From Actinomycetota bacterium (GTDB lineage: Bacteria > Actinomycetota > Thermoleophilia > Gaiellales > Gaiellaceae), in NCBI GenBank assembly GCA_003161615.1, contig PMOB01000006.1, positions 62,001 to 126,000 of the forward strand: a stretch of 64,000 bases of DNA, given 5' to 3'. Positions 9,124 through 46,709 of the stretch are shown here, piece by piece. Position numbers and translations under genes: made by a program. The first letter of the stretch is position 1, and every line of letters begins with the position of its first letter. Under the pieces are notes generated by a model. That model was not told the DNA's origin. It did not search any database and was given only the letters and a program-made list of their open reading frames with translations.

Positions 9124-11655
9124 ATGGTGGAGACGATCTCACCGGCGCTTTCGCCCGCGCTCGCGCACATCATCGAGCGCCCCAGGCTGATTGCGCGCCT
9201 CGAGGAAGGTGGCGGCTCGCGCGTCGCCGTCTTCGCGGCCCCGGCGGGGTACGGGAAGACGACGCTCGCGCGCCAGTGGTCGGAAAAGCAGTCAGGACAG
9301 GTCGCCTGATACCGCACGACGCGCGCCTCCGGCGATGTCGCTCTTCTCGCCGTTCAGTTCGACGAGCTCCTCGCCTCGCTCGCGCCCGACCTGCCGCGGG
9401 AGCCGGGCAAGGTCGCGTCGATCGCCTCCGTGAATCCCAGCCCTAAGCCGCTCGGCCGGGCGGTAGTGCGCACGTTCGAGCCGCTGGAGGAGGACATCCT
9501 GATCATCGTCGACGAGTGGGAGGCGGCCGAGACACCGGAGGCTGAGGAGTTTCTCTCGATGCTCGTCGACGGCCTCCACATTCGTTTCGTGATCACGACG
9601 CGGGAGCGGCCTGAGTGGTTCGTACCGCGGCTCGAGGTCTACGGCGAGGGGCTCGAGATCGGCGTGGACGAGCTCACGATGACGGATGACGAAGCCGCGG
9701 AGGTTCTCTCTGCCGCCGGCGCGGTCGCGGGTCGCGCACGCGTGATGCGGACGGCCGCCGGCTGGCCGGCGGTGCTGGGCCTCGCGGCGATGAGCGGCGA
9801 GGTGGACTTCACGTCCGACCGGCTCGTGTCGCACACGCTCTACGAATTCCTCGCCAGCGAGCTCGTGGCGTCCGCGGAGCCGGAGACGCGAGAGGCTCTG
9901 ATGCTCCTCGCCGTTGCCTCGGTCGTCGAGCTCGAGCGCGCGAAACAGCTCCTCGGCGACGGCGGCGAAGCGGCCCTAGCAGACGCCTCCGCGCGCGGCC
10001 TGCTGGCAATCACCGAGCGGAGCGCCCTCTTCTTCCACCCACTGCTGCGCGATCTGCTGATCCAGCGCTTCAGCGAAGTCGACGACGAAACGCGGTCGCA
10101 CCTCCTGACGCGGTGCCGCCGCCTGTTCGAGTTCCGGCTGTGGGATGAAGCGCTGTCGGTCGGGGAGCTGTCTCTGGATCCGGTCTTCGTCGCCGACGCG
10201 ATCGGCGTCGCATTGGACGATCTCCTCGCCGCAGGCCGCACGAGCAGCCTGGAGCGCTGGGTCATGTCCGCCCGCGCCGCGCACGCGAAGGGGCCTCTGG
10301 TGTCCTTTGCAGAGAGCGAATTCCTGTTGCGCCGCGGAGAGTTCGACGCTGCTGTGGCGATCGCGACGCAAGCAGCGCAGGATCTAGACGGCGACATCGC
10401 GGCTAGGGCGGACTTACTCGCCGCTCGGGCAGCTCACCTCGGAAACCGCCCAGGCGTCCGCGACAGACATCTCGCCCAAGCCGAGGAGAATGCAAAGAAG
10501 CACGAAACCAAGGCCGACCTGCTATGGCTGAAGGTAGCGGCGGCGGCAGCCAGCGAAGATGCAGGAACCGAACCCCTCTTCGATCAACTCGAGAAGCTCC
10601 CGAGAGGCGGGTTCGACCACTCGCTACGCGTCGCGACTGGCCACATTCACCTCGGTCTCCTAGTCGGGCGATTGACGGAGCGGCTCGAGGAGGCTGAGGC
10701 AAGGATCGCGGCGCTGGACAAGGCCACCGATCCGTATGCGCAGAGTTCGGTGCTGAATCTCTATGCCTCGGCGTTGATCGCCGCAGGGCGCTATGGAGAG
10801 GGGTTGGCTGCTGTTGAGAAAGAACTGAGCCTTGCAGAGGAATATGGATTCGAGTTCGTAGTCTGTTACGGCTTCGCGAACAAGACCTGGGCGCTCGCCG
10901 GGCTTCGACGCCTCCCCGAGGCGCGTCGAGCCCTTACCGTGTTGGAGCGCTGTCTTTCGTCATCACCAGACCCGTTTGTTGAATGCCAGCGATCGATCTA
11001 CGCCGCAACCCTTCACATCGCCGAGGGCGATCTCGAGCGAGCTTCCAACACACTCATGAGCGGGCAGGATCCGCGCGCCGGGGTGACCCAACGCGGGGAA
11101 CATCGCGCATTGCATGCCTTAGTGCTTGCGGCACTCGGGCGTGGGAGAGAGGCTGAGCACTATGCCGACGCAGCTCGGCACTGCTCGCGCGGAGTCGAAA
11201 CGCGAGCACTTCTCGCCGGCGCCTCAGCCGTGGAAAGTATTCATAAGGGCAACCGGAAGCAGGCGCTTGAGGCGTATGAGGAGATAGCGACGCTTGGCGT
11301 ATGGAACGCACTGGTGGTCGCTTGGCGCGCGTGCCCTGATCTGGCGGCTGTCCTAATGGAGGACTCGGAGCGACGCGAGCGGATGTTGCCGCTGCTGATC
11401 GGGGCAAATGATCGCGATATCGCCCGGCGCGCAGGCGTACCGATTCCGCGCGAGGCAAGACCGCGCGGGGTTCTGTCGGCGCGCGAGCGCGAAGTACACG
11501 AGCTAATTGCTCAGGGTCTGACGAACGACGAGATCGCAAAGCTCTTGTACATCAGCCTCTCGACGACCAAGGTTCACGTGAAACACATTTTCGAGAAGCT
11601 CGGGGTTAGATCGCGCATCGAGGCCGCGCGGCTTTGGGACAACGAGCGGGACTAG
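9124..11655 (+). pseudogene. LuxR-family ATP-binding regulator (MalT/LAL-like) with an in-frame TGA
   Basis: One reading frame of 844 codons encodes a large ATP-binding LuxR regulator. It has a P-loop APAGYGKTTLARQW (about residues 40-53), a Walker B-like ILIIVDEW (about residue 122), winged-helix and TPR-like repeats, and a C-terminal LuxR helix-turn-helix (LSAREREVHELIAQGLTNDE). A TGA at 9307-9309 interrupts it in frame at residue 62. Family members have Trp at this spot (Val-Ala-Trp before the next strand), so a single TGG to TGA change explains it. Everything after the stop stays open for 782 codons. The rest could start at a GTG at 9430, but that product would lack the P-loop. Composition is less GC-rich than the neighbours, most clearly from about 10,400 on. 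Confidence 0.85.
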
Positions 11656-13040
11656 TTCCCTGCGTCGACTGCTAGCGCCTCGACCAGCGTGACATCAGAC
11701 TCAAACTCGCCAGCGGGTTCCTCGTGGTCGAACCGAAAGCGTTCGCCGAGCGCAGTCCGATATGCCTCGTCTTCCGAAGTCAACACCGCTTCGAACGCCG
11801 CGACCACTGCGGTGTCGAACTGGCTTTCCACAGCCTGCGCCAGGCGAAGGCGCGCGACACGGCTCGGAAGCTTGTCACGATACGGGCGGTCGGACGTCAT
11901 CGCGTTATAGGCGTCTGCGACGGAGATGATCTTCGACAGGAGCGGGATTTCGTCCGCACGAAGGCCGTCGGGGTAGCCCTCGCCGTCGATCCTTTCATGG
12001 TGGTGCCGGACGATTCGGCCGATCCGTCCGTGGTCCTCGACCTCGACCTTCCGAAGGAGCTGCTCTCCGTACTCGGGATGCTTTTCCATCAGCCGCCGCT
12101 CCTCGAGCGACAGTGGTCCGTTCTTTTCCAGGAGTGCGGCCGGAAGACGGTACTTGCCGATGTCGTGTACCAACGCGCAGAGATGTACGAGATTGCGATC
12201 GTCGTCCGCAAGCCCCATCCGTTCGGCGATGTCGTGCGAATAGGTTGCTACCGCTAGCGAATGACCCGCGGTGTAAGGGTCGCTCTCCTCGAGCATCGCC
12301 ACGAGCCCTGTGGCAAAGCGCGCATTTGCGGTCCTAAGTCGGGCGTTTGCTGCTTCCAGGCTTCGTGACGCCTCCTTTTCCTGTTGATAGAGGTGAAGAA
12401 GGCGCTGAGCCGCGAGTGTTGGGACGAATACGACGAGGACGAGCCGGAGCGAGTACGCGTGATACCCGTAAACGAACAGCGCGACGATCGGCACGTAGAG
12501 CGGAACCGTCAGCAACGAGACAGCTCCGATGGCCGCGAGACCTGCCTTCCAATCGGCGCGGCGGACGATACCCGTCCCGGCGACCAGCACGGCCTCAGCG
12601 GCTTGGTCGGCGACCGAGGCTGCCAAACTCGCGAGGAAGTACGTGCCCACGTCATTTGCGCCATGCAAGAAGGGGGCGGCAGCTAGGCCGGCGGCCGCCG
12701 CCATCAAGCCTCCAATCGGCGTGTAGACAGCCCATTTCAGTCGCGATTCGCGGATGTCCCAGGCGTTAGAGATCGCACCGACCGCGAAGCCCCCGATTGG
12801 GCCGAATACGACGGCCGCAAACACAACGGGGAGAAACGAGACGGACATCGTGGCGCGCTCCGTCACGGCCACGCTCTGTCGTTCGGCAATTGCAGCAACT
12901 GCACCGAGCACGACAACTGCCCAGAGAGGCGGCAGCCGGTAACCGTCCATCCAAAGCGCAGCAACGGCGCCTGCGGATGCGACCGCCAGCACGACCGCCC
13001 AAGCGGCGCTTCGTCTGTCGACGGGACTAGACCGACGCAC
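11652..13040 (-). CDS. Membrane HD-GYP domain protein (putative c-di-GMP phosphodiesterase)
   Basis: The N-terminal half has about seven hydrophobic segments, similar in style to MASE-type sensor domains. A coiled linker is followed by an HD-GYP domain with GHSLAVATYSHDIAERMG, the HDIGK metal motif and HHHERIDGEGYP, matching the HHExxDGxGYP signature. Such enzymes hydrolyse cyclic-di-GMP. A GTG at 13040 is chosen because it follows an AAGG ribosome-binding sequence and places an inverted repeat in the leader; a TTG at 13121 would add 27 residues. The stop shares CTAG with the stop of the convergent LuxR regulator. It is less GC-rich than the bulk of the window. Confidence 0.88.
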   Translation of the reverse strand: MRRSSPVDRRSAAWAVVLAVASAGAVAALWMDGYRLPPLWAVVVLGAVAAIAERQSVAVTERATMSVSFLPVVFAAVVFGPIGGFAVGAISNAWDIRESRLKWAVYTPIGGLMAAAAGLAAAPFLHGANDVGTYFLASLAASVADQAAEAVLVAGTGIVRRADWKAGLAAIGAVSLLTVPLYVPIVALFVYGYHAYSLRLVLVVFVPTLAAQRLLHLYQQEKEASRSLEAANARLRTANARFATGLVAMLEESDPYTAGHSLAVATYSHDIAERMGLADDDRNLVHLCALVHDIGKYRLPAALLEKNGPLSLEERRLMEKHPEYGEQLLRKVEVEDHGRIGRIVRHHHERIDGEGYPDGLRADEIPLLSKIISVADAYNAMTSDRPYRDKLPSRVARLRLAQAVESQFDTAVVAAFEAVLTSEDEAYRTALGERFRFDHEEPAGEFESDVTLVEALAVDAGN

Positions 13041-13056
13041 GATTGAAGCCAGCCTT

Positions 13057-13082
13057 GCGTATCCCCCAGAAGGGGTATACGC
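13057..13082. promoter_or_regulatory. C-block/G-block inverted repeat upstream of the HD-GYP gene
   Basis: GCGTATCCCCC and GGGGTATACGC face each other around AGAA, with one unpaired base. It lies 17-42 bases upstream of the chosen HD-GYP start. The same kind of repeat (ATCCCCC-N4/5-GGGGGAT) occurs at several other places close to signalling genes in this window, which suggests an operator rather than a terminator. There is no T run on either side. Confidence 0.45.
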
Positions 13083-13222
13083 TGCGGCTGCCGTCAGTCC
13101 CCGATCGATCGGAGTTCTCAATGCGTCGTTCGCTTATCCGCCTTGCCGTCCGCTCTGCCGCGGTCGGCCAGGGCAAGATCTGGTAGAGCCGTCGGATAGT
13201 CCGTTATCCACAGCCTGTGATC

Positions 13223-13241
13223 ATCCCCCGGCTGGGGGAAA
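13223..13241. promoter_or_regulatory. C-block/G-block inverted repeat, second copy
   Basis: ATCCCCC-GGCT-GGGGGAA, seven-base arms with one mismatch at the end. It is nearly the same element as at 13057 and 30043. It sits between the DnaA-like box and the terminator. Confidence 0.4.
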
Positions 13242-13277
13242 GGCACAAGGCGGATAGCGGGATGACGGCAGCAGTTC

Positions 13278-13315
13278 ACGGGCGCCGGGTGTTCTTCACC
13301 CGGCGCCCGTTTTTT
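13278..13315 (+). terminator. Strong orphan rho-independent terminator
   Basis: A perfect 14-base stem (ACGGGCGCCGGGTG / CACCCGGCGCCCGT) with a TTCTT loop is followed immediately by five further T residues on the plus strand. Both flanking genes are on the minus strand, so this terminator has no annotated gene to serve. It implies an unrecognised plus-strand transcript beginning somewhere after about 13,100. Confidence 0.8.
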
Positions 13316-13358
13316 CCTCGTCCACAGCCTGCGGCTTGCTCCTGTGGACGAGTGCGTG

Positions 13359-13691
13359 CTAGGCGATGAGCCCGCGACGAAAGCCGACGGCAACGGCATG
13401 AGCACGCGAGCGCGCCTGCAGCTTCGCGAGTAGATGGCGGACGTGAGACTTCACCGTCTCCTCCGACAGGAACAGCCGCTCGCCGATCTCCCGGTTCACG
13501 AGGCCGTCGGAGATGAGCTGCAGCACCTCGATCTCCCGCCCCGTCGGCTCCTGCTCGAGCGCGCGTGTCGGGGTCTGAAGCGAGATCACGTCCCCGCCGG
13601 GCCCCCCGCGCCGGCGCGCCGCCACTTCCTCGAAGCGGCGCGAGTGCGTGAGGTACCGGCTGAGGATCTCCTTGCGCTCAGCAGCGTCCAC
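13359..13691 (-). CDS. Small LuxR-family DNA-binding protein, 110 aa
   Basis: After a 45-residue charged N-terminal segment comes a LuxR/GerE helix-turn-helix: LTG-like PTGREIEVLQLISDGLVNRE, then RLFLSEETVKSHVRHLLAKL. There is no receiver domain. The C-terminal extension is basic (HAVAVGFRRG). An inverted repeat (ACTCCC/GGGAGT) lies 24 bases upstream of the ATG and may be autoregulatory. Together with the genes at 8735, 9124 and 11652 it forms a signalling cluster. Confidence 0.85.
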   Translation of the reverse strand: MDAAERKEILSRYLTHSRRFEEVAARRRGGPGGDVISLQTPTRALEQEPTGREIEVLQLISDGLVNREIGERLFLSEETVKSHVRHLLAKLQARSRAHAVAVGFRRGLIA

Positions 13692-13736: not shown

Positions 13737-16010
13737 CTAACTCGACCGTGCCGGCCGCACGCAGATCGTCGCGTAGTCGAACTCGTAGAGGACGTTGTTC
13801 ACGTAGCAGCCGAGGTCGACGCGCGCGCTGAAGAAGTCGGTTTCCTTGCGATTGAGGAACGGCGCCCACGGTGCGAGGCGCATCACCTGCAGGTCGAGCT
13901 GCGCCCAGCGCGCGTCCACCTTCGAGGTGAGCTTCGGCTGGCGCGTCAGCGCGTCGATCTTCCGATTGACCGACGGCGAGTCGAAGTACGCGTAGTCGTC
14001 GTTGTGCGTCGGCCGGATCTGCTGGCCGTTGAGCAGGACGCCGAACCAGTCGAGCGGGTGCGGGTAGTCCTGGAACCAGTCGGCGAAGCCGATCTGCGCG
14101 CGCGTCGTCCCCTCGCCCAGCGTCGCCCAGTAGTCGCTCGCCGTCAGGACGCGCTCGCGGACTTTGAAGCCGAGCTTGCGGAGGACGGAGGCGAGGTACT
14201 CGGTGAACGGCAGGTCGGCGGCGACGTCGTGGTTCCAGACGACAACGCGCTTCCCGCGCTCACCCGACTCGCGCACAAGCTTGCGCGCCAGGCGCAGGTC
14301 GTGCCGGTAGAGGTGATGCCGGCGGAAGGACGGATAGTCCGGCGGCAGGACGTTCTCCGTCGGCTTCGCGAGCCCGCCCGCGAGCTCCACCAGCGTCCGG
14401 CGCGAGATCGCGTAGTTCACCGCCCGCCGCACCGCGAGCTTGTCGAACGGCGCGACACGCGTGTTCATGAAGAAGTAGAGAAGGTTCGGCGTCGTGAACT
14501 TCTCGAGGCGCTTCGGGTACTTCCTCTGGATGCTCGCCAGCCGCTTGCTCGGAACCGGCCAGTAGCTCATCCAGTCGTCCTTGCCCTGGATGACGCGGCG
14601 CAGCGCGACACCGGCGTTCGGGACGACGTCCCACGTGACGCGGTCGGGATTGCCGGCCGGCACCGCGCCGTGGAACTGCCAGGCGTGGAAATACGGATTC
14701 CGCACCTCGACGATCCGCGCGCGCGGCTGGTAGCTCTGGATCACATACGGCCCCGTCGCGGGCAGCGGGTGGAGCGAGGTGTCGGCGCGCGGCGCGCTTG
14801 CCGGGACGGGAGCGGCGAACTCCGACGCGAGGATGTTCTCGAAGTCGCCCTCGGGCGCGCGGAGATGGATGACGATCGTCCGCTTCCTGTCGTTGACGAC
14901 GATCCCGGGGATGCCGCCCTTCTGGCGCTGCGCGAACCCCTTCGCGCCGATGATGTCGCGGAACAGGCCGGCACCGGCCGAGTCGAGGATGAAGTCCCGC
15001 TCGATCGCTGCTTTGAAGTCGCCCGCCTTGACGCGCGTCCCGTTCGAGTAATGGAGGTCTTTGCGCAGCGTCAGCGTGTACGTCCGCTTGTCCGGCGAGA
15101 CGGTCGGCAGCGCCCGCGCAAGGTAGGGGACGAGCTTCGCGCCGTCCAGCCCGCTGTCGTGCTTGTAGCCGAGGAGCGGTAGGTAGACGTTCCACATGAC
15201 GCCCCAGCCCTCGGTCGAGTCCGACAGGCCCGGGTCGAGGTAGTCCGTCGACTCGTCCATCGCGATCCGGAAGTCGGGGAAGGCGTGCGGTGCGCCGGTG
15301 GGCTTCGCGGGCTTCGGAGCCGCGACCGTCACGGTCGTGGCATGCGTCGTGCCGGGCGGAGCGGCGCTCTCCTGGCTCCCGCAACCGACGAGGGCGAAGA
15401 ACGACAGAGCCGCTACGAAAGCGCCGAAGCGGACGAGGGCGCGGCGGCGCGCACGCAGCTCCGCGGGCTCGTCCTCCTCCACGACGCCGTCGACGCCCTC
15501 GCGGCGCGTCGAGTGGAGGATGCGCCCGCCGCCGAGCCAGAACGCGATGTGATCGGCGCTTTCCGGCGGTCCGTACGTGATGAGGTCACCGGCACGGAGC
15601 TCGTCTTCGCCGAGCTTCTCGCCCGCCGCCTCCTGCTCGTCGGCGTCGCGGGGAACGAGCGTGCCGGTCGCCCGAAAGGACATGTGGACGAGTCCAGAGC
15701 AGTCGATACCCGCAGCGGTCATTCCTCCCCATTCGTAGCGGGTTCCGAGCAACGACCGCGCGTAGGCGACCGGATCGGCCCCCCGCGCCGCGAGCCATTC
15801 CGGGTCGGCGTCGCCACCAAGTGCCTCGCGGCGGATCCAGCCGGGATACGCGTACGCGGTCTCGACGCGCGCCCACTCGCCGCGCTCCTCAAGCACGCGA
15901 AGCGGCTCGCCGGCGCGCGCCTGCGTGACCTGCTCGGCATCGTCTCTCGGTTCCGCCCGCAGTGGTGCCAGCTGGCGCGCAAACGTATGTTCGCCTACGC
16001 TCTCCGCCAT
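13737..16010 (-). CDS. NlpC/P60 hydrolase fused in frame to an oligopeptide-binding lipoprotein
   Basis: One open frame of 757 residues joins two normally separate proteins. Residues 1-175 are an SH3b-like segment plus an NlpC/P60 cell-wall peptidase (GIDCSGLVHMSFR with catalytic Cys; DHIAFWLGGGRILHS with catalytic His). Directly after RRRALVRF comes a hydrophobic signal and lipobox (FFALVGCGSQ), then a family 5 solute-binding domain to the end (DSTEGWGVMWNVYLPLLGY, DFENILASEF, DWFQDYPHPLDWFG). The binding part alone could start at a GTG at 15482, giving a 581 aa lipoprotein. If made as one chain, the hydrolase would sit on the cytoplasmic side of an internal signal, which is unlikely to be useful. 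A lost stop codon or internal initiation is therefore suspected. Confidence 0.8.
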   Translation of the reverse strand: MAESVGEHTFARQLAPLRAEPRDDAEQVTQARAGEPLRVLEERGEWARVETAYAYPGWIRREALGGDADPEWLAARGADPVAYARSLLGTRYEWGGMTAAGIDCSGLVHMSFRATGTLVPRDADEQEAAGEKLGEDELRAGDLITYGPPESADHIAFWLGGGRILHSTRREGVDGVVEEDEPAELRARRRALVRFGAFVAALSFFALVGCGSQESAAPPGTTHATTVTVAAPKPAKPTGAPHAFPDFRIAMDESTDYLDPGLSDSTEGWGVMWNVYLPLLGYKHDSGLDGAKLVPYLARALPTVSPDKRTYTLTLRKDLHYSNGTRVKAGDFKAAIERDFILDSAGAGLFRDIIGAKGFAQRQKGGIPGIVVNDRKRTIVIHLRAPEGDFENILASEFAAPVPASAPRADTSLHPLPATGPYVIQSYQPRARIVEVRNPYFHAWQFHGAVPAGNPDRVTWDVVPNAGVALRRVIQGKDDWMSYWPVPSKRLASIQRKYPKRLEKFTTPNLLYFFMNTRVAPFDKLAVRRAVNYAISRRTLVELAGGLAKPTENVLPPDYPSFRRHHLYRHDLRLARKLVRESGERGKRVVVWNHDVAADLPFTEYLASVLRKLGFKVRERVLTASDYWATLGEGTTRAQIGFADWFQDYPHPLDWFGVLLNGQQIRPTHNDDYAYFDSPSVNRKIDALTRQPKLTSKVDARWAQLDLQVMRLAPWAPFLNRKETDFFSARVDLGCYVNNVLYEFDYATICVRPARSS

Positions 16011-17670
16011 GCAGCTCAGGCTAGACGCGGCCGACCGGCTGGTGGAACTCGTGGAGGAGCGGCGCGGGCCGGTGGCCGCCGAGGACGCGGCGCGCCAGCT
16101 CTTCGCGCTGCGCCAGGCTCCTGTCGCGCTCGCGCGCTCGCTCCTCAGCGAGGTCGTCGAGGCCGACGCGCGCCTCGCATGGAACGGCGACACGGTCGGG
16201 CTCGCACAGCCGCCCGGCGCCGGCCTCCTGCTCGAGGACGCAACGTACGTCGTCGTCGACCTCGAGACGACCGGGCTCCGGCCCGGCCAGTCGGGGATCT
16301 GCGAGATCGGAGCGGTGCGGATCCAGGCGCTCGAGCCGGCCGGCGAGTTCGAGACGCTCGTCAACCCGGGAATGCGAATCGCGCCGGGCGCGTCGGCTAT
16401 CACCGGCCTGCGCGACGAGCAGCTCCGCGGAGCGCCTCGGCCGCAGGAGGCCGTGCGGCGCTTCCTCGACTTCGCCGGCGACGCGGTGCTCGTCGCCCAC
16501 AACGCGCGCTTCGACCTCGCCTTCCTCGACCGCGAGACGGAGCTGCTGACGGGCTCGCGCATCGCCGCACCGGTCGTCGACACGGTGCTCCTCGCGCGAA
16601 AGCTGCTTGCGGGGCGCGTCGCGGGCTTCTCGCTCGGGCAGCTCTCGTGGTTCCTCGGGACGACCGAGCGGCCCTGCCACCGGGCGCTCCCCGATGCGCG
16701 CGCGACGGCCGAGCTCCTCCTCGCTCTGATCGGGCTCGCGCAGGAACGCGGTGCACGGACGGTCGCCGATCTCGGCGCGCTCGCCGCGACGCGCAACCGC
16801 CGGCTCCTCGACAAGCGCCATCTCGCGTTCGGCGCTCCGACCAGTCCCGGCGTCTACCTCTTCCGCGGCCGCGGCGACCAGGTGCTCTACGTCGGCCGGG
16901 CTCGCGACCTGCGGGCGCGGCTTCGCTCCTACTTCCGCAGCGACCGGCAACGCCCCGCGGTCGAGGCGGCGCTCGGCGCGACGGAACGGATCGAGTGGCG
17001 CGTCCTCGGGTCGGAGCTCGAAGCCGCGCTCGCGGAGCTGCGGCTGATCCGGGAGCTGCGCCCGCCGGGAAACGCGCGCGTCTCGCGGCCGGAGCGCCAT
17101 GTCTGGCTGCGAGCGCGCGGCGACTCCGTCGTCGCGTCGACGCAGCCGTCCCCGCTCGGCCCGCTGCGCTCGCGGCGGCAGGCGCAGCTCGCGGCGCGGG
17201 CCTTGAAGCCGGACGAGCTCGTGTCGCCGTCCGCCGCGCTGCCCCGGCTGCGACGCCGTCTCCGCGAGCTCTCGGACGCGCGCCGCTTCGAGGACGCGGC
17301 GAGGCTCCGCGACCGGATCGGAGCGCTCGAACGCGTCTGCCGCGAGCTCGAACGGCTCGAGCGGCTGCGGCGGATGGAGTGCTGCCTCCTTGTACCCGCT
17401 GCCGAGGAGAGCTACGTCACCGCGGTGTTCGTCGCCGGTGGCGGCGTCGTCGCGGAGCGAACGCTGCCGCCTGGAGGCGGCGCCGCGCTCGAAGTCGAAG
17501 CCGGCCTCGCCGCTGCGAGACGCGCCGCGACAGCAGGCGGCGAGCTCCAGCTCGACGAAGTGCTCCTCATCGACTCGTTCCTCCGCCGCCCGCCGCCCGA
17601 GCTGCGGGTCGCGCCGCTCGCGCGCACGGCGATCCTTCATGCGGCGGAGGCGGTTCCCCGGGGCGGCTAG
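16009..17670 (+). CDS. DEDDh exonuclease fused to a GIY-YIG/UvrC-like nuclease
   Basis: The 553 aa protein starts with an about 75-residue helical domain. It continues with a DnaQ-type exonuclease (VVVDLETTGL with D84 and E86; AHNARFDLAFL; CHRALPDARAT with the His-Asp pair). A GIY-YIG domain follows near residues 280-310 (SPGVYLFRGRGDQVLYVGRA), then a UVR-like segment (DARRFEDAARLRDRI). This is the actinobacterial DnaQ-Cho type fusion, probably acting in DNA repair. Its ATG overlaps by two bases with the divergent hydrolase ATG (CATG at 16008-16011), so each gene's ribosome-binding region lies inside the other. Confidence 0.88.
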   Translation: MQLRLDAADRLVELVEERRGPVAAEDAARQLFALRQAPVALARSLLSEVVEADARLAWNGDTVGLAQPPGAGLLLEDATYVVVDLETTGLRPGQSGICEIGAVRIQALEPAGEFETLVNPGMRIAPGASAITGLRDEQLRGAPRPQEAVRRFLDFAGDAVLVAHNARFDLAFLDRETELLTGSRIAAPVVDTVLLARKLLAGRVAGFSLGQLSWFLGTTERPCHRALPDARATAELLLALIGLAQERGARTVADLGALAATRNRRLLDKRHLAFGAPTSPGVYLFRGRGDQVLYVGRARDLRARLRSYFRSDRQRPAVEAALGATERIEWRVLGSELEAALAELRLIRELRPPGNARVSRPERHVWLRARGDSVVASTQPSPLGPLRSRRQAQLAARALKPDELVSPSAALPRLRRRLRELSDARRFEDAARLRDRIGALERVCRELERLERLRRMECCLLVPAAEESYVTAVFVAGGGVVAERTLPPGGGAALEVEAGLAAARRAATAGGELQLDEVLLIDSFLRRPPPELRVAPLARTAILHAAEAVPRGG

Positions 17671-18977
17671 GCCGGGGCGTTGTAGAGGTGGCAGGCCACC
17701 TCGACGTCGCCCGACTGCCCGAGGGTCGGGTCGTGCGGCTCGTGGAAGTCGAGCTCGAGCCGGCCGTCGACCGCTTCGAGCCGCCGCACACCTTTCCAGA
17801 ACGGCTCGTCGGGATCCTCTGTCCGGATCCGCTCGAGCACGGCGAGCATCTCCGCTGCGGTCCGGCCGCGCGGCGGCGTGAGCCGCGCGGAGATCAGCGG
17901 CGCGGAGAGAGCGTCGAGATTGCCGAACAGCGCCTCTTCCTCCTCCACTCCCGCCTCGCCCGCCTTCCGCGCCCAGCGCGCCTCGAGCAGGTCGCGGAGA
18001 TCGCGAGACTCCCAGCCGCACGGCTGGAACGCGAGCGGGCAGCGCGGATGGAAGGAGCAGCCGAGCGGCGGCGACGCGGCGTCCGGGACTTCGCCGCGCG
18101 GCAGGTCCCGCGGCACTGCCCGCGCCGGGTCGGGCTCGGGAATCGCACGGAGCAGCGCCTTCGTGTACGGGTGCTTGGGATCCGCGTAGATCGACGCCGC
18201 ATCCCCGATCTCGACGATCCGGCCGAGATACATGATCGCGATCCGGTCGCAGAAGAACTTCGCCGTCGCGAGGTCGTGGGTCACGTAGAGATACGTGAGA
18301 TCGAAGTCGCGCTTCAGCTCGGCCATGAGCTCGAGGATCTTGGCCCTGACGCTCATGTCGAGCATCGACACGGGCTCGTCTGCGACGAGCAGAACCGGGT
18401 TGAGGATGATCGCGCGGGCGATGACCGCGCGCTGCTTCTGCCCGCCCGAGAGATCGCTCGGGTACTTGTCCATGTACTGCGCGGCTGGCGCCAGCCCAAC
18501 CCGCTCGAGAGCCTCGGCGACCTTGATCCGCAGCCGCTCGCGGTTCCGTTCCAGGCCGTGGATCTGGAGCGGATGGCCGACCGCCTGCGCGATCGTCATC
18601 GCCGGGTTGAGCGACGCGTGTGGATCCTGGAAGACGACCTGCATGCGGCGGCGAAGCGCGCGGAACTCCCGCTCGGGCACGTGCGCGACGTCGTGTCCCT
18701 CGAATTCGACGACGCCGGACGTCGCACGGACGAGACCGAGGATCGTCCTCCCGAGCGTGGTCTTGCCGCTGCCGGACTCGCCGACGAGCCCCAGCACCTC
18801 GCCCTTGCGGACGTCGAGCGAGACGCCGTCGACGGCCTTGACGACCCCGCCTTCGCGGCCGACGAGCCGGTCGGCGAAGCTGCCGCGGATCGAGTAGTAC
18901 GTCCGCAGGTCGCGGATCGAGACGAGCGGCTCGCCCTCGGCGATGTCCGGCCTCGCGACCGCCGCCTCAGGCCTCAT
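17667..18977 (-). CDS. oppF: Oligopeptide ABC transporter ATP-binding protein, OppF/DppF type
   Basis: A 436 aa ABC ATPase with Walker A GESGSGKTT, Q-loop VVFQDPHASLNP, signature LSGGQKQR, Walker B LLVADEPVS and the His switch THD. The peptide-transporter C-terminal cluster is present (HPYTKALL, then the Cys pattern CSFHPRCPLAFQPC that can bind an Fe-S cluster). An extra about 100-residue C-terminal extension follows, longer than usual. The ATG at 18977 overlaps the upstream oppD stop by 11 bases. It is the last gene of the five-gene importer operon. Confidence 0.93.
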   Translation of the reverse strand: MRPEAAVARPDIAEGEPLVSIRDLRTYYSIRGSFADRLVGREGGVVKAVDGVSLDVRKGEVLGLVGESGSGKTTLGRTILGLVRATSGVVEFEGHDVAHVPEREFRALRRRMQVVFQDPHASLNPAMTIAQAVGHPLQIHGLERNRERLRIKVAEALERVGLAPAAQYMDKYPSDLSGGQKQRAVIARAIILNPVLLVADEPVSMLDMSVRAKILELMAELKRDFDLTYLYVTHDLATAKFFCDRIAIMYLGRIVEIGDAASIYADPKHPYTKALLRAIPEPDPARAVPRDLPRGEVPDAASPPLGCSFHPRCPLAFQPCGWESRDLRDLLEARWARKAGEAGVEEEEALFGNLDALSAPLISARLTPPRGRTAAEMLAVLERIRTEDPDEPFWKGVRRLEAVDGRLELDFHEPHDPTLGQSGDVEVACHLYNAPA

Positions 18978-19992
18978 CCGCAACTCCGAGCAGCTCGCGT
19001 TCGAGCGGCGCGCCACCGCCGGCCGGAATGCGATCGTTCGGCCCGTGCAGCCAGCAGAGGACGCGGCGGCCGTCCTCGAACCGCTGCTCAATCGGCTCCA
19101 GCTGGGCGCAGACCGTCATCGCGTTCGGGCAACGCGGATGGAACCGGCACCCCGGCGGCGGATCGATGAGGTTCGGCGGCGCACCGGGGATCGAGTGCAG
19201 CTCGGTCGTGTCGAGGGAGATGGTCGAGCGCAGCAGCTCCCGCGTGTACGGGTGCGCCGGCTCGGCGAAGATCTCGCGCACCGGCCCCTCCTCCGCGATC
19301 CGGCCGGCGTACATCACGGCCATCCGGTCGCACGACTCCGCGACGATCCCGAGGTTGTGCGTGATCAGGAGCAGCGCGGTCCCGAAGTTGTTCTTCAGGT
19401 CGGCGAGGAGCGCGAGGATCTGCCCCTCCACGATCACGTCGAGCGAGGTTGTCGGCTCGTCGGCGACGAGGAGTTTCGGCCGCAGGACGAGCGCGAGGGC
19501 GATCATGATCCGCTGCCGCATCCCACCGGAGAACTCGTGCGGGTATTGGCGGAACCGGGTCGGCGGGATCCCCATCCGGCCGAGGGTCTCGAGCGAGCGC
19601 CGCCGGACCTCGGCGTCGGTCAGGTTCGGCTCGTGCTGCTCGAGCGTCTCGCGGAAGTGGCCTTCGATCCGGAGGAGCGGATTCAGCCGGGTCATCGGCT
19701 CCTGGAAGATGAGCCCGAGCTCCGGCCCTCGCATCCGGCGCACCGACTTCTGTGACATGGCGACGAGGTTCTGCCCGTCGTACAGGACCTCGCCGTCGGC
19801 GCGCGCGCCGTCGGGGAGAAGGCCGAGGATGCCGCGGCCGAGCGTCGACTTGCCGCAACCCGACTCGCCGACGAGACCGACGACCTCGCTCTCGCCGATG
19901 TCGAGCGAGACGCCGTCCACCGCGCGCACCGGCCGGCCGGGCGTCCCGTAGTAGACGCGGAGGTTCTTGACCTGGAGGATCGCGTCGCTCAC
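18967..19992 (-). CDS. oppD: Oligopeptide ABC transporter ATP-binding protein, OppD/DppD type
   Basis: The 341 aa ATPase has Walker A GESGCGKST, LIFQEPMTRLNP, signature FSGGMRQR, Walker B LLVADEPTT and H-switch ITHN. The C-terminal peptide-transporter motif (GCRFHPRCPNAMTVC) contains the conserved Cys set. The GTG start overlaps the stop of the permease gene dppC (GTGA). It pairs with the oppF product to drive peptide import. Confidence 0.94.
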   Translation of the reverse strand: MSDAILQVKNLRVYYGTPGRPVRAVDGVSLDIGESEVVGLVGESGCGKSTLGRGILGLLPDGARADGEVLYDGQNLVAMSQKSVRRMRGPELGLIFQEPMTRLNPLLRIEGHFRETLEQHEPNLTDAEVRRRSLETLGRMGIPPTRFRQYPHEFSGGMRQRIMIALALVLRPKLLVADEPTTSLDVIVEGQILALLADLKNNFGTALLLITHNLGIVAESCDRMAVMYAGRIAEEGPVREIFAEPAHPYTRELLRSTISLDTTELHSIPGAPPNLIDPPPGCRFHPRCPNAMTVCAQLEPIEQRFEDGRRVLCWLHGPNDRIPAGGGAPLERELLGVADEA

Positions 19993-20984
19993 TCGGCCTC
20001 TTCGACTGCGCCGGGCACCGGCTCGAAATCGAACTGCCCGAAGCGGCGCCGGCGGAGCACCGGGTTGATCGTCTCGTTCAGCCCCTCGCCAAGCAGGGTG
20101 AGCCCGGTGACGAGAAGGACGATCGCGAGCCCCGGGAACAGGCCCGTCCACCAGATCCCGGACGAGGCGTCCGAGACGGCGCGCGATACGTCGTAGCCCC
20201 ACTCAGCGCCCTGCGTCGGCTGGATCCCATAGCCGAGGAAGCCGAGCGAGGCGAGGAGGAGGATCGCGTCGGCGGCGTTCAACGTCGCGATCGGCGGCAC
20301 GTTCTGGACCACGTTGAAGAACACGTACTTGCGGATCACCGTGCGCGGGCGCGCGCCGAGCGCTCGCGCGGCATCGACGTACGGTTCCTCGCGGACGCTG
20401 ATCACATGGTTCCGGACGACGCGGAAGTACAAGGGAACGTAGGCGGCGGTGATCGCTATCGCCGCAGTGAAGATCCCTCCGCCGATGCTCGAGGTGGAGA
20501 GCACGAAGGCGATAACGATCGCGATCAGCAGGTACGGGAAGGCGAAGATCGCGTCCATGATCAGGACGAGGGCGCGGTCGAGGATCCCGCCGAAATAGCC
20601 GGAGATCAGCCCGAGCGGCACACCGATGCTGAGCGACATCGCGAGCGCGATCACGACGACCTTGAGCTCGGTCTGGGCGCCGTAGATCACACGCGCCATG
20701 ACGTCGTCCGACTGCACGGTCGTCCCCATCCAATGCAGGCCCGACGGATGCCCGAGCTGCGGGAAACGGACGCCGTTCGCCTTGTACTGGCTGAAGTTGT
20801 AGCGCGAGATGACCGGCGCGAGGAAGGCCATGAGGATGAACGCGAACGTGATGCCGACGCCCGCCCAGAACATGCCGCGGGCGATCCCGCTTGCCTCGCG
20901 GATCGGCTTCGTCGCGCGGCCGAGCGCGAGCAGCCGGGCGCGGCCGTACGGCGTGCGAGGACTCGCGGGAGCGGTCGCAGCCAC
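19989..20984 (-). CDS. dppC: Peptide ABC transporter permease, DppC type
   Basis: A 331 aa membrane protein with a long first helix followed by the DppC-type extracytoplasmic loop. The binding-protein-dependent permease core has five more helices and the EAA motif in EPYVDAARALGARPRTVIRKYV. The GTG at 20984 is one base after the dppB stop. The C-terminus has a basic/acidic cytoplasmic tail. Confidence 0.93.
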   Translation of the reverse strand: MAATAPASPRTPYGRARLLALGRATKPIREASGIARGMFWAGVGITFAFILMAFLAPVISRYNFSQYKANGVRFPQLGHPSGLHWMGTTVQSDDVMARVIYGAQTELKVVVIALAMSLSIGVPLGLISGYFGGILDRALVLIMDAIFAFPYLLIAIVIAFVLSTSSIGGGIFTAAIAITAAYVPLYFRVVRNHVISVREEPYVDAARALGARPRTVIRKYVFFNVVQNVPPIATLNAADAILLLASLGFLGYGIQPTQGAEWGYDVSRAVSDASSGIWWTGLFPGLAIVLLVTGLTLLGEGLNETINPVLRRRRFGQFDFEPVPGAVEEAE

Positions 20985-20985
20985 G

Positions 20986-22008
20986 CTAGTACCGGATCCT
21001 CGGGTCGACGTACGCGTTAAGGAAGTCCACGAGCACACTCACCGCGACGACGACGAGCGCGAACACGATGATGATCCCCTGCACGGCCGTGTAGTCCCGG
21101 TTCTCGAGGTACACGACGAGCTCGTGACCGATGCCCGGCCAGTTGAACGTGGTCTCCGTGAGGACTGCGCCGCCGAGCAGGATCGCGAGGTTGAGGCCGA
21201 CGATGGTGATCACCGGAACGAGCGCGTTCTTGAAGGCGTGCGCGAAGACGACGCGATGCTCGGCGATCCCCCGCGCTCGCGCGGCCTCGATGTAGTCGTC
21301 GCGCATGGTCCTGATCACATTGACGCGGACAAGGCGGATGAAGACGCCTGCCGTCACGAGGCCGAGCGTCGTCGCGGGAAGGATCAGATGCTTGGTGATG
21401 TCCCACAGCGCTCCCCAATTCCCGTCCCAGATCGCGTCGACGAAAAAGATGTTGGTGTGGGTCTGGAGCAGCGCCTGCGTGATCGGGCTCGCCTGATCGG
21501 ATGTCGGCAGCCAGCCGAGCCAGACGCCGAAGACGAGCTGCGCCATCAGCCCGAGGAAGAACACCGGCGTGGCGTAGATGAAGATCCCGAACAGGCGCCC
21601 GAAGATGTCGAGCGGCGTGTCGCGGTAGCGGCCGGCAACGAGGCCGATCAGCACCCCGACGACGATCGCGATGAGCATCGCGAAGAACGTGAGCTCGAGG
21701 GTGGCAGCGCCGTTCTGCTCGATGATCTGGGAGAGCGGACGATTGTCGGTGATCGTCGTGCCGAAGTTGCCGCGGAGGATGTTCCAGAGGTACTCGCCGT
21801 ACTGGGTGATGAGCGGCTTGTCGAAGCCGAGCCGGTGTTCGATCTGGTGGACGTACGCGGCAGGGACGTGGCCGCCGAGCGCCGCCTGAATCGGGTTACC
21901 CGGAGCGACGCGCAGAAGCAGGAAAACCAGCGTCAGCAGGATGAACACCATCGGCACGACAAGCGCCAGGCGCGTAATGAGGTACGTCCTGAGAGAGGTG
22001 CCGGCCAC
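20986..22008 (-). CDS. dppB: Peptide ABC transporter permease, DppB type
   Basis: The 340 aa protein has the typical N-terminus of DppB permeases (YLITRLALVVPMVFILL), the RVAPGNP motif near residue 34, six membrane helices and the EAA loop (DDYIEAARARGIAEHRVV). Together with DppC it forms the channel. It is separated from the binding-protein gene by a 66-base gap containing a stable hairpin. Confidence 0.94.
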   Translation of the reverse strand: MAGTSLRTYLITRLALVVPMVFILLTLVFLLLRVAPGNPIQAALGGHVPAAYVHQIEHRLGFDKPLITQYGEYLWNILRGNFGTTITDNRPLSQIIEQNGAATLELTFFAMLIAIVVGVLIGLVAGRYRDTPLDIFGRLFGIFIYATPVFFLGLMAQLVFGVWLGWLPTSDQASPITQALLQTHTNIFFVDAIWDGNWGALWDITKHLILPATTLGLVTAGVFIRLVRVNVIRTMRDDYIEAARARGIAEHRVVFAHAFKNALVPVITIVGLNLAILLGGAVLTETTFNWPGIGHELVVYLENRDYTAVQGIIIVFALVVVAVSVLVDFLNAYVDPRIRY

Positions 22009-22027
22009 GTTCTGCGGATTCTGCAGG

Positions 22028-22055
22028 AAGGGGCGCCTCGGTAGAGGCGCCCCTT
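22028..22055 (-). terminator. Intercistronic hairpin between the binding protein and dppB
   Basis: A perfect 12-base stem (AAGGGGCGCCTC / GAGGCGCCCCTT) with a four-base loop. There is no T run on the minus strand. Such hairpins between a binding-protein gene and its permeases usually protect the upstream message or partly stop transcription, so that the binding protein is made in excess. Confidence 0.65.
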
Positions 22056-22074
22056 CGTTCGTCGAGGGCTAGGA

Positions 22075-23634
22075 CTACTTCGAGATCAGCCAGAAGCGCA
22101 TGTAGTACGCGGCATCCAGCGTCGAGTCGATGCCCTTCACGTTGCTGCGGCTCACCGCGATCATGTTCCCCTGCCAGTACGGAATCGTCGGCAGGTCCTT
22201 CGCGCCGAGCATCTGCATCTGCTTCAGGTACGAGTAGCGCGAGGCTTCCGTCTTGGCCGCCCGCTCCTTCGCAATCAGACCGTCCATCTTCTTGCTGCTG
22301 TAGCCGTTCGAGTAGAAGGAACCGGTCTGGTAGAAGCTGACGGTGTAGTCGTCGGCGTCCGGATAGTCCGGGAACCAGCCGAGCTGGAACGCCCCGTACA
22401 CCTTGCCGAGCGCGCTGCTGTACTGCGCCCACTCGGCGGACTTCAGCGTCACTTTGAACAGGCCCGACGCGTTGAGCGCCCGCTGGATCTCCACGTACTC
22501 GTCGGCCGACGCGTCACCGTAGTGCGACGGCGTCCACCAGAGCGTGATCTTCAGCGGCGTCTTCACGCCGGCGGCCTTCATTGCGGCCTTCGCCTTCGCA
22601 ACGTTCGGGCTTGCGCCGTACAGCGCCTTGAACGCGTCGGTCTGGCCGGGCAGGCCTTTCGGCACCATCGAGTAGAGCGGAGCCACAGTGCCGTGATAGA
22701 CGCGGCTCGCGATCGTCTGCCGCGGCATCAGGTAGGCGATCGCCTTCCGGACGTTGACGTTGTTGAACGGCGCCCGCTTCACGTTGAACACGAGATAGCG
22801 GATGACCACGCCGTGGCCGGAGTGGACGGTGAGCGACTTCTGCTTGCCCAGCGCCGTGAGTTCGGTCGGCGTGAACGTCTGGAACGCCATGTCGAGGGAG
22901 CCCTGCTGAAGCGCCAGCTTCATCGTCGACGACTTCGAGAAGTAGTTGATGATGAGGCCGCTGTTCTTCGGCTTCGCGCCCCAGTAGTTCTTGTTCACTC
23001 CGAACACCGCTTGCTGGCTCGGCGTGAACTTCGTGAGCACGTACGGCCCGGTGCCGATCATGTGGGCCGTGTCCGTGTTCGCCAGGATCTTGGTGGCCGG
23101 GAAGTCCTTCTTGTCGACGACGTAACCGGCGTTCGTCGAGAGGATGTACGGCCAGACCGAGAACGGGTGGATGAGGTGGAAGACCACCGTGTACTTCCCG
23201 CTCGTCGAGGTGCTCTTGAGGTCCGACAGCAGGGTGTAGATGCCCTGGTCGCCCTTGATCTTGAGGACGCGGTCGAACGAGTACTTCACATCCGCCGAGG
23301 TCATCGGATCGCCGTTCGAGAACTTGACGCCGTGCCGGAGCTGGCACGTCCACGTCTTGAGGTTCGTCGAGTGGCTGCACCCCGTCGCCAGGACAGGCGT
23401 GAGCTTCGCGCCGTTCGGGAAGCCGTAGAGCCCCTGGAAGATGTTGAGGTCGACGGTGAACGAGTCGTAGTCGTACTGGTTCGCCGGATCGATGTTGACG
23501 ACCGTGCCCGTCGTTCCGTCAACGATGATCCCGCCCGACTTTGCGCCACCGTAAGCGCTCGTCGCGACCGCGGCGGCAGCCGCGGCGAGCGCGACGGTCA
23601 GCACCGCCAGCGCCCATTTGAACCTTTTCTTCAT
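22075..23634 (-). CDS. Peptide/solute-binding protein of ABC importer (family 5)
   Basis: A 519 aa secreted protein with a classical signal peptide (MKKRFKWALAVLTVALAAAA) and no lipobox cysteine, unlike the second binding protein at 13737. Family 5 motifs include DPANQYDYDSF, the KFSNGDPMTSADVKYSFDR segment near residue 105 and the GWFPDYPDADDYTVSFY region near the C-terminus. The ligand is likely a peptide, but family 5 proteins also bind nickel, sugars and other solutes. It is the first gene of the importer operon and has a strong AAAGGGAGG ribosome-binding site. Confidence 0.92.
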   Translation of the reverse strand: MKKRFKWALAVLTVALAAAAAAVATSAYGGAKSGGIIVDGTTGTVVNIDPANQYDYDSFTVDLNIFQGLYGFPNGAKLTPVLATGCSHSTNLKTWTCQLRHGVKFSNGDPMTSADVKYSFDRVLKIKGDQGIYTLLSDLKSTSTSGKYTVVFHLIHPFSVWPYILSTNAGYVVDKKDFPATKILANTDTAHMIGTGPYVLTKFTPSQQAVFGVNKNYWGAKPKNSGLIINYFSKSSTMKLALQQGSLDMAFQTFTPTELTALGKQKSLTVHSGHGVVIRYLVFNVKRAPFNNVNVRKAIAYLMPRQTIASRVYHGTVAPLYSMVPKGLPGQTDAFKALYGASPNVAKAKAAMKAAGVKTPLKITLWWTPSHYGDASADEYVEIQRALNASGLFKVTLKSAEWAQYSSALGKVYGAFQLGWFPDYPDADDYTVSFYQTGSFYSNGYSSKKMDGLIAKERAAKTEASRYSYLKQMQMLGAKDLPTIPYWQGNMIAVSRSNVKGIDSTLDAAYYMRFWLISK

Positions 23635-46617: not shown

Positions 46618-46709
46618 CGGAGCGGCGCCGGAGTCGAACCGACCTAGCCGTGGGTTGCACGACCGTACGGGTTTTGAAGACCCGCTGGGCCACCAGGCCC
46701 GGCCGCTCC
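46618..46709 (-). tRNA. selC: Selenocysteine tRNA (anticodon UCA)
   Basis: The 92-base RNA has an eight-base acceptor stem (GGAGCGGC / GCCGCTCC), a long D stem (GGGCC-TGGT-GGCCC), an anticodon arm with loop CTTCAAA giving UCA, a long variable arm and a T arm with GGTTCGACTCC. These are hallmarks of bacterial tRNA-Sec. The discriminator is G and CCA is not encoded. With selA and selB it shows that UGA is decoded as selenocysteine in some genes of this organism. Confidence 0.96.

Follow-up and report, generated by a model that had tools for sequence, protein, structure and literature searches.

Comparison with relatives indicates that the plus strand of the window (the whole 64,000-nucleotide stretch analysed here) carries a tiny open reading frame at 13121–13186, 21 codons reading MRRSLIRLAVRSAAVGQGKIW-stop, which is under protein-level selection. 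The same comparison supports a peptide-coding transcript of about 225 nt that would end at an intrinsic terminator at 13278–13315 on the same strand. Genes of 8–28 codons fall under the usual size limits of gene callers, and such a gene recurs across the Gaiellaceae, a little-known family of soil bacteria known here almost only from metagenome-assembled genomes. The unit is not described in the open-licence literature searched, among the matches listed; because that search covered open-licence papers only, the unit is not thereby shown to be unpublished.

A sequence-only reading of the interval had described the terminator as one with no gene to serve and had taken a short regulatory RNA to be its likely product. 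The anatomy it reported is sound. The stem has 14 pairs (12 of them G-C) at 13278–13310 around a 5-nt loop and runs into T6 at 13310–13315; minus-strand genes for a LuxR/GerE-type regulator (13359–13691) and an HD-GYP-type protein (11652 to about 13031) flank it; and the inverted repeat (13060–13079) and DnaA-like word TTATCCACA (13204–13212) that it listed are both present. The statement that no convincing plus-strand gene lies upstream was mistaken, as the conserved 21-codon frame shows protein-level selection. That reading had itself named a conserved plus-strand protein frame in relatives as the observation that would speak against it. We looked for such a frame and found one, and a purely regulatory, non-coding role is therefore unsupported, while comparative anatomy bears out the other half of the proposal, a short plus-strand transcript with conserved structure. 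The terminator is real and serves a gene, the tiny ORF upstream of it on the plus strand.

A tiny frame ending in Trp-stop

The unit recurs in relatives on a common plan that consists of a TTG-type −35 element, the palindrome CCCCnnnnnGGGG, a TATA-type −10 element, GCCGTYAGTYCC, GGAG and a tiny ORF closed by Trp-stop; a hairpin comes next, and in many cases a terminator as well. Relatives were found by searching with the region, where 14 of 61 genomes gave some match (several of them by chance), and with the neighbouring LuxR gene, and the intervals were then read. A scan of the genome collection for GGGGTATA followed after 9–11 nt by GCCGTYAGTNCC returned 24 stretches, two of which (L049 and L055) matched by chance and were discarded, leaving 22 real loci. 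Trp is not part of that pattern, and Trp-stop closes all 21 complete units, L061 being cut off. It also closes 16 of the 17 luxR intervals read, again with no Trp condition, the exception being L086, where the match was a chance ORF that was dropped before the counts.

The coding test covered 28 ORFs, each 20 codons or longer, which were anchored at the stop codon for alignment and came from an ORF finder that had a G-rich Shine-Dalgarno site as a condition. In the window this site is a Shine-Dalgarno-like GGAG at 13111–13114 on the plus strand, by direct reading. The 28 ORFs reached a BLOSUM score of 7128, whereas 300 column shuffles averaged −1576 (sd 999) and peaked at 1466. Synonymous changes made up 0.51 of single-base codon changes in frame, compared with 0.29 and 0.17 in the other frames. 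Frame 0 was free of stops and averaged a BLOSUM of 1.07 per pair, whereas the other frames held 16 stops each and had negative means. The third codon position was the least conserved, and selection reached residues far upstream of the Trp.

Peptide composition was examined in 42 sequences of at least 19 residues, 28 of them collected by script and 14 typed from read loci. K or R stands at −3 in 36 of the 42 and G at −6 in 35, with A at −10 in 35 and A, T or S at −9 in 34. A basic residue (K or R) falls within residues 2–6 in 39 peptides, and an acidic one within the first 14 in two. Trp is present in all 42, partly by construction because the ORF finders required TGG-stop. In 12 of the 42, including the peptide of the window, V or L precedes G(−6), which is a poor fit to signal peptidase.

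Across units the peptides range from 8 to 28 residues. Judged by eye, the forms of 25–28 aa open with basic residues and contain a long hydrophobic stretch, and long forms such as MRFRAIAFLSTLLSVASVAGQLKGW or MKARFFGIISAIATIAAIGGTMKAW resemble a signal peptide joined to Gxx[KR]xW. Many of the 21-aa forms carry an Arg inside the hydrophobic stretch and look, again by eye, like poor signal peptides. Five genomes of the genus g19 have only 8–10 residues (e.g., MARGAKVW), which stand at the same place and keep the C-terminus, without the hydrophobic stretch and without a leader for export.

Putative promoter region and RNA structure of the unit

Upstream of the frame lies a promoter-like site on the plus strand, TTGCGT and TATACG separated by 15 nt (13055–13081). 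With a permissive pattern that had no control, we saw a corresponding pair, TTG-N3 and a TATA-like element 15–16 nt apart, in 28 of 33 related units. A generic promoter scan found no promoters, leaving the 13055–13081 site unflagged. The spacer of this site is filled by the palindrome TATCCCCCAGAAGGGGTATA (13060–13079), a candidate operator which also precedes the divergent HD-GYP gene and which may resemble a NarL-type 7-2-7 site. Allowing at most one mismatch, 54 matches to the motif are listed for the 103 family genomes compared with 3 for the reversed control, and the matches fall partly outside the unit. We considered the palindrome as a regulon marker but do not claim a regulon, because several of the copies read outside the unit in relatives fall at the 3′ ends of genes. 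Elsewhere in the genome of the window, a second perfect palindrome, TCCCCCAAAAGGGGTATA, lies upstream of a response-regulator-like gene named by eye (G000:C25:45523–45540, L067). Palindromes of the CCCCCAAAAGGGG type in L092, L093, L094, L097, and L098 lie near the 3′ end of an apparent DMT/EamA-type transporter gene, also called by eye, and are possibly terminators.

Near the inferred transcription start, the plus strand carries a conserved 5′ leader word, GCCGTCAGTCCCC (13090–13102). It has ten invariant columns in alignment A1, the rows of which were mostly picked by a pattern holding the leader word and the palindrome, so that its conservation there is partly selected for. GCCGTYAG was also present in 11 of the 17 loci fetched by luxR alone, and the word is missing in divergent relatives which keep the peptide and the hairpin. 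In the minimum-energy fold of the window, the leader GCCGTCA pairs with the 3′ strand TGACGGC in a long-range helix, an observation that concerns the window only. The idea that the leader hides the Shine-Dalgarno site was dropped, as its occlusion of 0.70 is hardly above the 0.62 of the control.

A long plus-strand hairpin begins just after the stop codon (13188–13269). Folds give it an outer helix, P1 (13201–13209 with 13252–13260) and an inner P2 (13224–13239). In single-sequence folds, 24 of 33 units form a long hairpin (12 pairs or more) around the word CATCCC, its start falling no more than 2 nt ahead of, or 3 nt beyond, the stop codon's end; the other nine do not fold in this way. RNAalifold on a plain MAFFT alignment (A3) returned almost no structure, with 6 pairs and 0 changed on both sides. 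We attribute this to 3′ arms that do not align by sequence, and an arm-swap test was therefore used. Over 33 sequences the native arms summed to −1092 against −885 (sd 27) for swapped arms, and none of 20,000 permutations was as low, in a test that ignores relatedness and includes one locus (L076) cut at the wrong place by the pattern. The native 3′ arm was the best or second-best partner in 11 of the 33 sequences, and that of the window ranked 10th. These values indicate that the hairpin arms co-vary.

DnaA binding at TTATCCACA was considered and rejected. By our reading the short-peptide genus loses the word and keeps the pairing, and RNA pairing therefore explains the word better than DnaA does. 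In G239 the ORF is kept and the usual hairpin sequence was not seen by eye, which suggests, from this one genome, that the peptide rather than the RNA is the more stable core of the unit.

Hairpins resembling the terminator were read by eye in several same-genus relatives. Between 10000 and 17000 two terminator-like sites were found, both at the 13278–13315 locus, compared with a shuffle mean of 3.6, so that there is no excess; the terminator itself is nonetheless a strong one. The fold of 13120–13318 has a z-score of −7.2, and none of 200 shuffles was equally stable. Covariance models of Rfam 15 gave no match at gathering score within 13000–13400, and the sub-threshold matches obtained under lax settings look like chance. 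A second inverted repeat, GTCCACAG...CTGTGGAC, lies at 13321–13351 between the terminator and the luxR stop, with similar words in relatives.

Neighbouring genes and distribution

The gene tail-to-tail with the unit (luxR, 13359–13691, minus strand) encodes a short LuxR/GerE-type regulator (Pfam GerE, 7e-18), and full-length matches to its product share 71–92% identity with that of the window. Divergent from the unit, also on the minus strand, is the gene for an HD-GYP-type protein with a hydrophobic N-terminal part (11652–13031, start uncertain; Pfam HD_5, 3e-33). A MalT-like regulator is encoded on the plus strand at 9124–11655 and was recognised from a C-terminal GerE domain, a below-cut-off MalT match and a P-loop motif identified by reading. 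In this assembly its gene has an in-frame TGA at 9307–9309 (plus strand), shortly after the P-loop, which marks either a pseudogene or an assembly error. The MalT-like protein diverges fast; three of the ten scanned gave TPR matches, and one of these exceeded its cut-off.

A model of the 3′ part of the unit (R1), made up mostly of sequence with 6 pairs, detected the element in 48 of 103 Gaiellaceae genomes at E ≤0.01, a count that includes the weak matches G020 and G232 (a fragment). In a class draw of 299 genomes it gave 46 matches, 45 in the family and one, G259 (E 0.0017), outside it. G020, G232, and G259 are not proven units. The luxR ortholog (E ≤1e-30) was found in 50 of the 103 family genomes, and in 20 of a class draw of 150 genomes, all of them in the family. 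Element and luxR occur together in 44 genomes, each time on the same contig and tail-to-tail with a gap of −7 to 125 bp; luxR lies on the strand opposite to the unit in all 44 family genomes with both detected. The HD-GYP ortholog (E ≤1e-60) was found in 42 of the 103 family genomes; 37 of these have the element, in 33 within 400 bp, and 11 element-bearing genomes lack an HD-GYP match at this threshold. Fisher tests of co-occurrence, which ignore relatedness and missing contigs, gave 8e-18 for element and luxR and 7e-13 for element and HD-GYP.

Six genomes have luxR only. By reading, the ORF is present in four of them (G118, G228, G229, and G239), the contig end truncates the locus in G237, and in G179 the tiny ORF seems absent. 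Four have the element only: G164 at a contig end, the weak matches G020 and G232, and G026, which has the ORF and no luxR match. Ten further genomes were searched for the HD-GYP ortholog: G020, G026, G179, and seven lacking both luxR and the element. G020 alone gave a match, which lies at a contig end. Of the 22 real loci, 20 contain the HD-GYP gene and 17 the MalT-like gene, and those without them stop before these genes would be reached; 16 contain luxR, and in the remaining six the sequence runs out on the luxR side. The unit, luxR and the HD-GYP gene tend to be kept or lost together.

Two observations concern individual loci. G179 (L086/L169) has apparent HD-GYP coding directly against luxR, with no HD-GYP match at 1e-60. 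Gaiellaceae-like cassettes were seen at L045, L051, L052, L058, and L063 in genomes titled Chloroflexi, Glaciihabitans, Acidobacteriota, and Myxococcales, and the titles or bins of these genomes look wrong.

Possible roles of the peptide

We tentatively favour, at somewhat below even chances, a peptide-signal cassette that works like the RRNPP systems without being a member of them. The peptide would be made and exported, in the longer forms via the basic, hydrophobic N-terminal part, and cleavage before the glycine at −6 would release a short C-terminal signal, Gxx[KR]xW (GQGKIW in the window). This signal would re-enter through the neighbouring oligopeptide-type ABC importer and be read by either adjacent GerE-type regulator, the MalT-like or the short LuxR protein. 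The target of this regulator would be the palindrome lying between the HD-GYP gene and the unit, which would place peptide production and an HD-GYP output, probably involving cyclic-di-GMP, under joint control. The hairpin after the stop would most likely stabilise the short messenger or tune its translation. Processing, import, GerE reception and action at the palindrome are steps that we infer. The conserved RNA structure, which a simple pheromone gene does not explain, speaks against the signal model, as do the 8–10 aa forms of the five g19 genomes, which have no export leader. The Arg-interrupted hydrophobic stretch of many 21-aa forms, the V or L before G(−6), the fast divergence and few TPR matches of the MalT-like protein, and the 11 element-bearing genomes without an HD-GYP match weigh on the same side. 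The candidate mature peptide has six residues, and the prediction is cheap to test.

As described in PMC10075063, the RRNPP signature comprises a propeptide gene, Sec/PptAB secretion, Opp import and an adjacent TPR receptor of 250–500 aa. Measured against that account, the unit shares with the RRNPP systems of Bacillota (Rgg/SHP, Rap/Phr, PlcR/PapR, ComR/ComS, and AimR/AimP) a tiny neighbouring peptide gene with a basic start and a conserved C-terminus, a hydrophobic middle in the longer forms, and an oligopeptide-type importer and helix-turn-helix regulators nearby. The propeptide shape outlined there is matched by eye by the 25–28 aa forms, poorly by the 21-aa forms and not by those of 8–10 aa. 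An adjacent TPR receptor of 250–500 aa was not found at the unit. Unlike in these systems, the regulator next to the peptide gene is of the GerE type, short (110 aa match) and without a TPR match, the other neighbour is an HD-GYP protein, and the TPR-like candidate is a long MalT-type protein (frames of 675–763 aa) encoded beyond the HD-GYP gene. Some of the peptides are of 8 aa, a conserved RNA hairpin follows the ORF, and the host is actinobacterial, further differences from that account. The same source describes actinobacterial signals as typically small molecules (PMC10075063); if the peptide is a signal, it would represent a peptide-based system in a phylum so characterised, with a receptor type outside the RRNPP class. 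It is possible, though we regard it as doubtful, that this amounts to a lineage-specific peptide signalling of Actinobacteria, with a Gxx[KR]xW hexapeptide encoded on a structured small messenger, Opp-type import, GerE-type (LuxR/MalT) readers that are not RRNPP, an HD-GYP output and one genus with its precursor pared to 8–10 residues.

Several other readings bear on the same evidence. The tight linkage to luxR and the HD-GYP gene would also fit an intracellular micropeptide that is never exported and whose C-terminal [KR]xW binds the short LuxR or the HD-GYP protein and switches it. Such a ligand would accommodate the leaderless 8–10 aa forms, which retain the C-terminus, and a luxR product as conserved as this one (71–92% identity), but it would not need the basic start and long hydrophobic stretch of the 25–28 aa forms, and we consider it unlikely. 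Were the peptide to act directly on LuxR, or on the RNA that encodes it, the unit would be a compact model of micropeptide control. Some forms, which are 25–28 aa long, hydrophobic and begin with basic residues, would suit the small peptide of a type I toxin-antitoxin pair; this reading is very improbable, given homologues of 8–10 aa at the same place without a hydrophobic stretch, which argue against a membrane peptide, and a conservation concentrated in the C-terminus.

Other readings place the function in the RNA, in whole or in part. Ribosome-arrest leader peptides, TnaC and the like, are similar to the unit in that a conserved Trp adjoins the stop codon and a hairpin forms in the RNA immediately beyond it. 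A sensor RNA of this kind, in which pausing of the ribosome at the Trp codon and stop melts the hairpin and thereby alters what becomes of the RNA (for example, termination, decay or read-through antisense to luxR), would agree with the conserved TGG-stop, with the long hairpin that 24 of 33 units start no more than 3 nt from the stop, with the co-varying arms, and with the GCCGTCA leader that can pair with the same 3′ strand, TGACGGC, in the minimum-energy fold of the window. Unlike TnaC, the unit has no directly downstream gene on the plus strand to control, and selection extends along the whole peptide to residues far upstream of the Trp, the single Trp codon standing only at the end. The Shine-Dalgarno occlusion close to its control (0.70 vs 0.62), the frame that G239 keeps without the usual hairpin and the nine of 33 units that fold otherwise also weigh against a leader sensor, which seems rather improbable. 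Dual-function RNAs which also encode a short peptide, such as RNAIII/delta-haemolysin and SgrS/SgrT, resemble the unit in being short transcripts that combine a small ORF with conserved structure in the RNA and end at an intrinsic terminator; they differ from it in that here the peptide appears, from one genome, to be a more stable core than the RNA, and the unit matches no Rfam family. Regulation by the RNA in addition to the peptide, through target pairing via GCCGUYAGUYCC or antisense to a luxR–HD-GYP messenger that would run across the unit, would fit a strongly conserved untranslated 5′ word (in pre-selected A1 rows, and in 11 of 17 luxR-fetched loci) and a unit lying antisense between luxR and the HD-GYP gene, which share a strand on its two sides. 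Divergent relatives lose the 5′ word and keep the peptide and hairpin, and we rate this dual role as distinctly unlikely. That the unit is a non-coding small RNA only, with an accidental ORF, as first proposed, would be compatible with the strong fold (z about −7) and the co-varying arms, and is hardly credible in the face of frame-specific protein selection.

The importer of the favoured signal model would be the product of Opp-type ABC genes on the minus strand at 17667–23634, which comprise ATPases (17667–19091 and 18967–20202, the second named by eye only), permeases (19989–21038 and 20986–22008) and a substrate-binding protein (22075–23634). Of the 13 loci with enough sequence, 11 have OppD/F-like ATPases on the luxR side, and in two they are absent or elsewhere. 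The Opp-type transporter may be ordinary neighbourhood. Between Opp-type genes, a plus-strand gene at 15925–17670 joins an RNase T exonuclease domain to GIY-YIG and UVR domains. Elsewhere in the window, a selenocysteine tRNA (Rfam RF01852) is encoded on the minus strand at 46619–46709.
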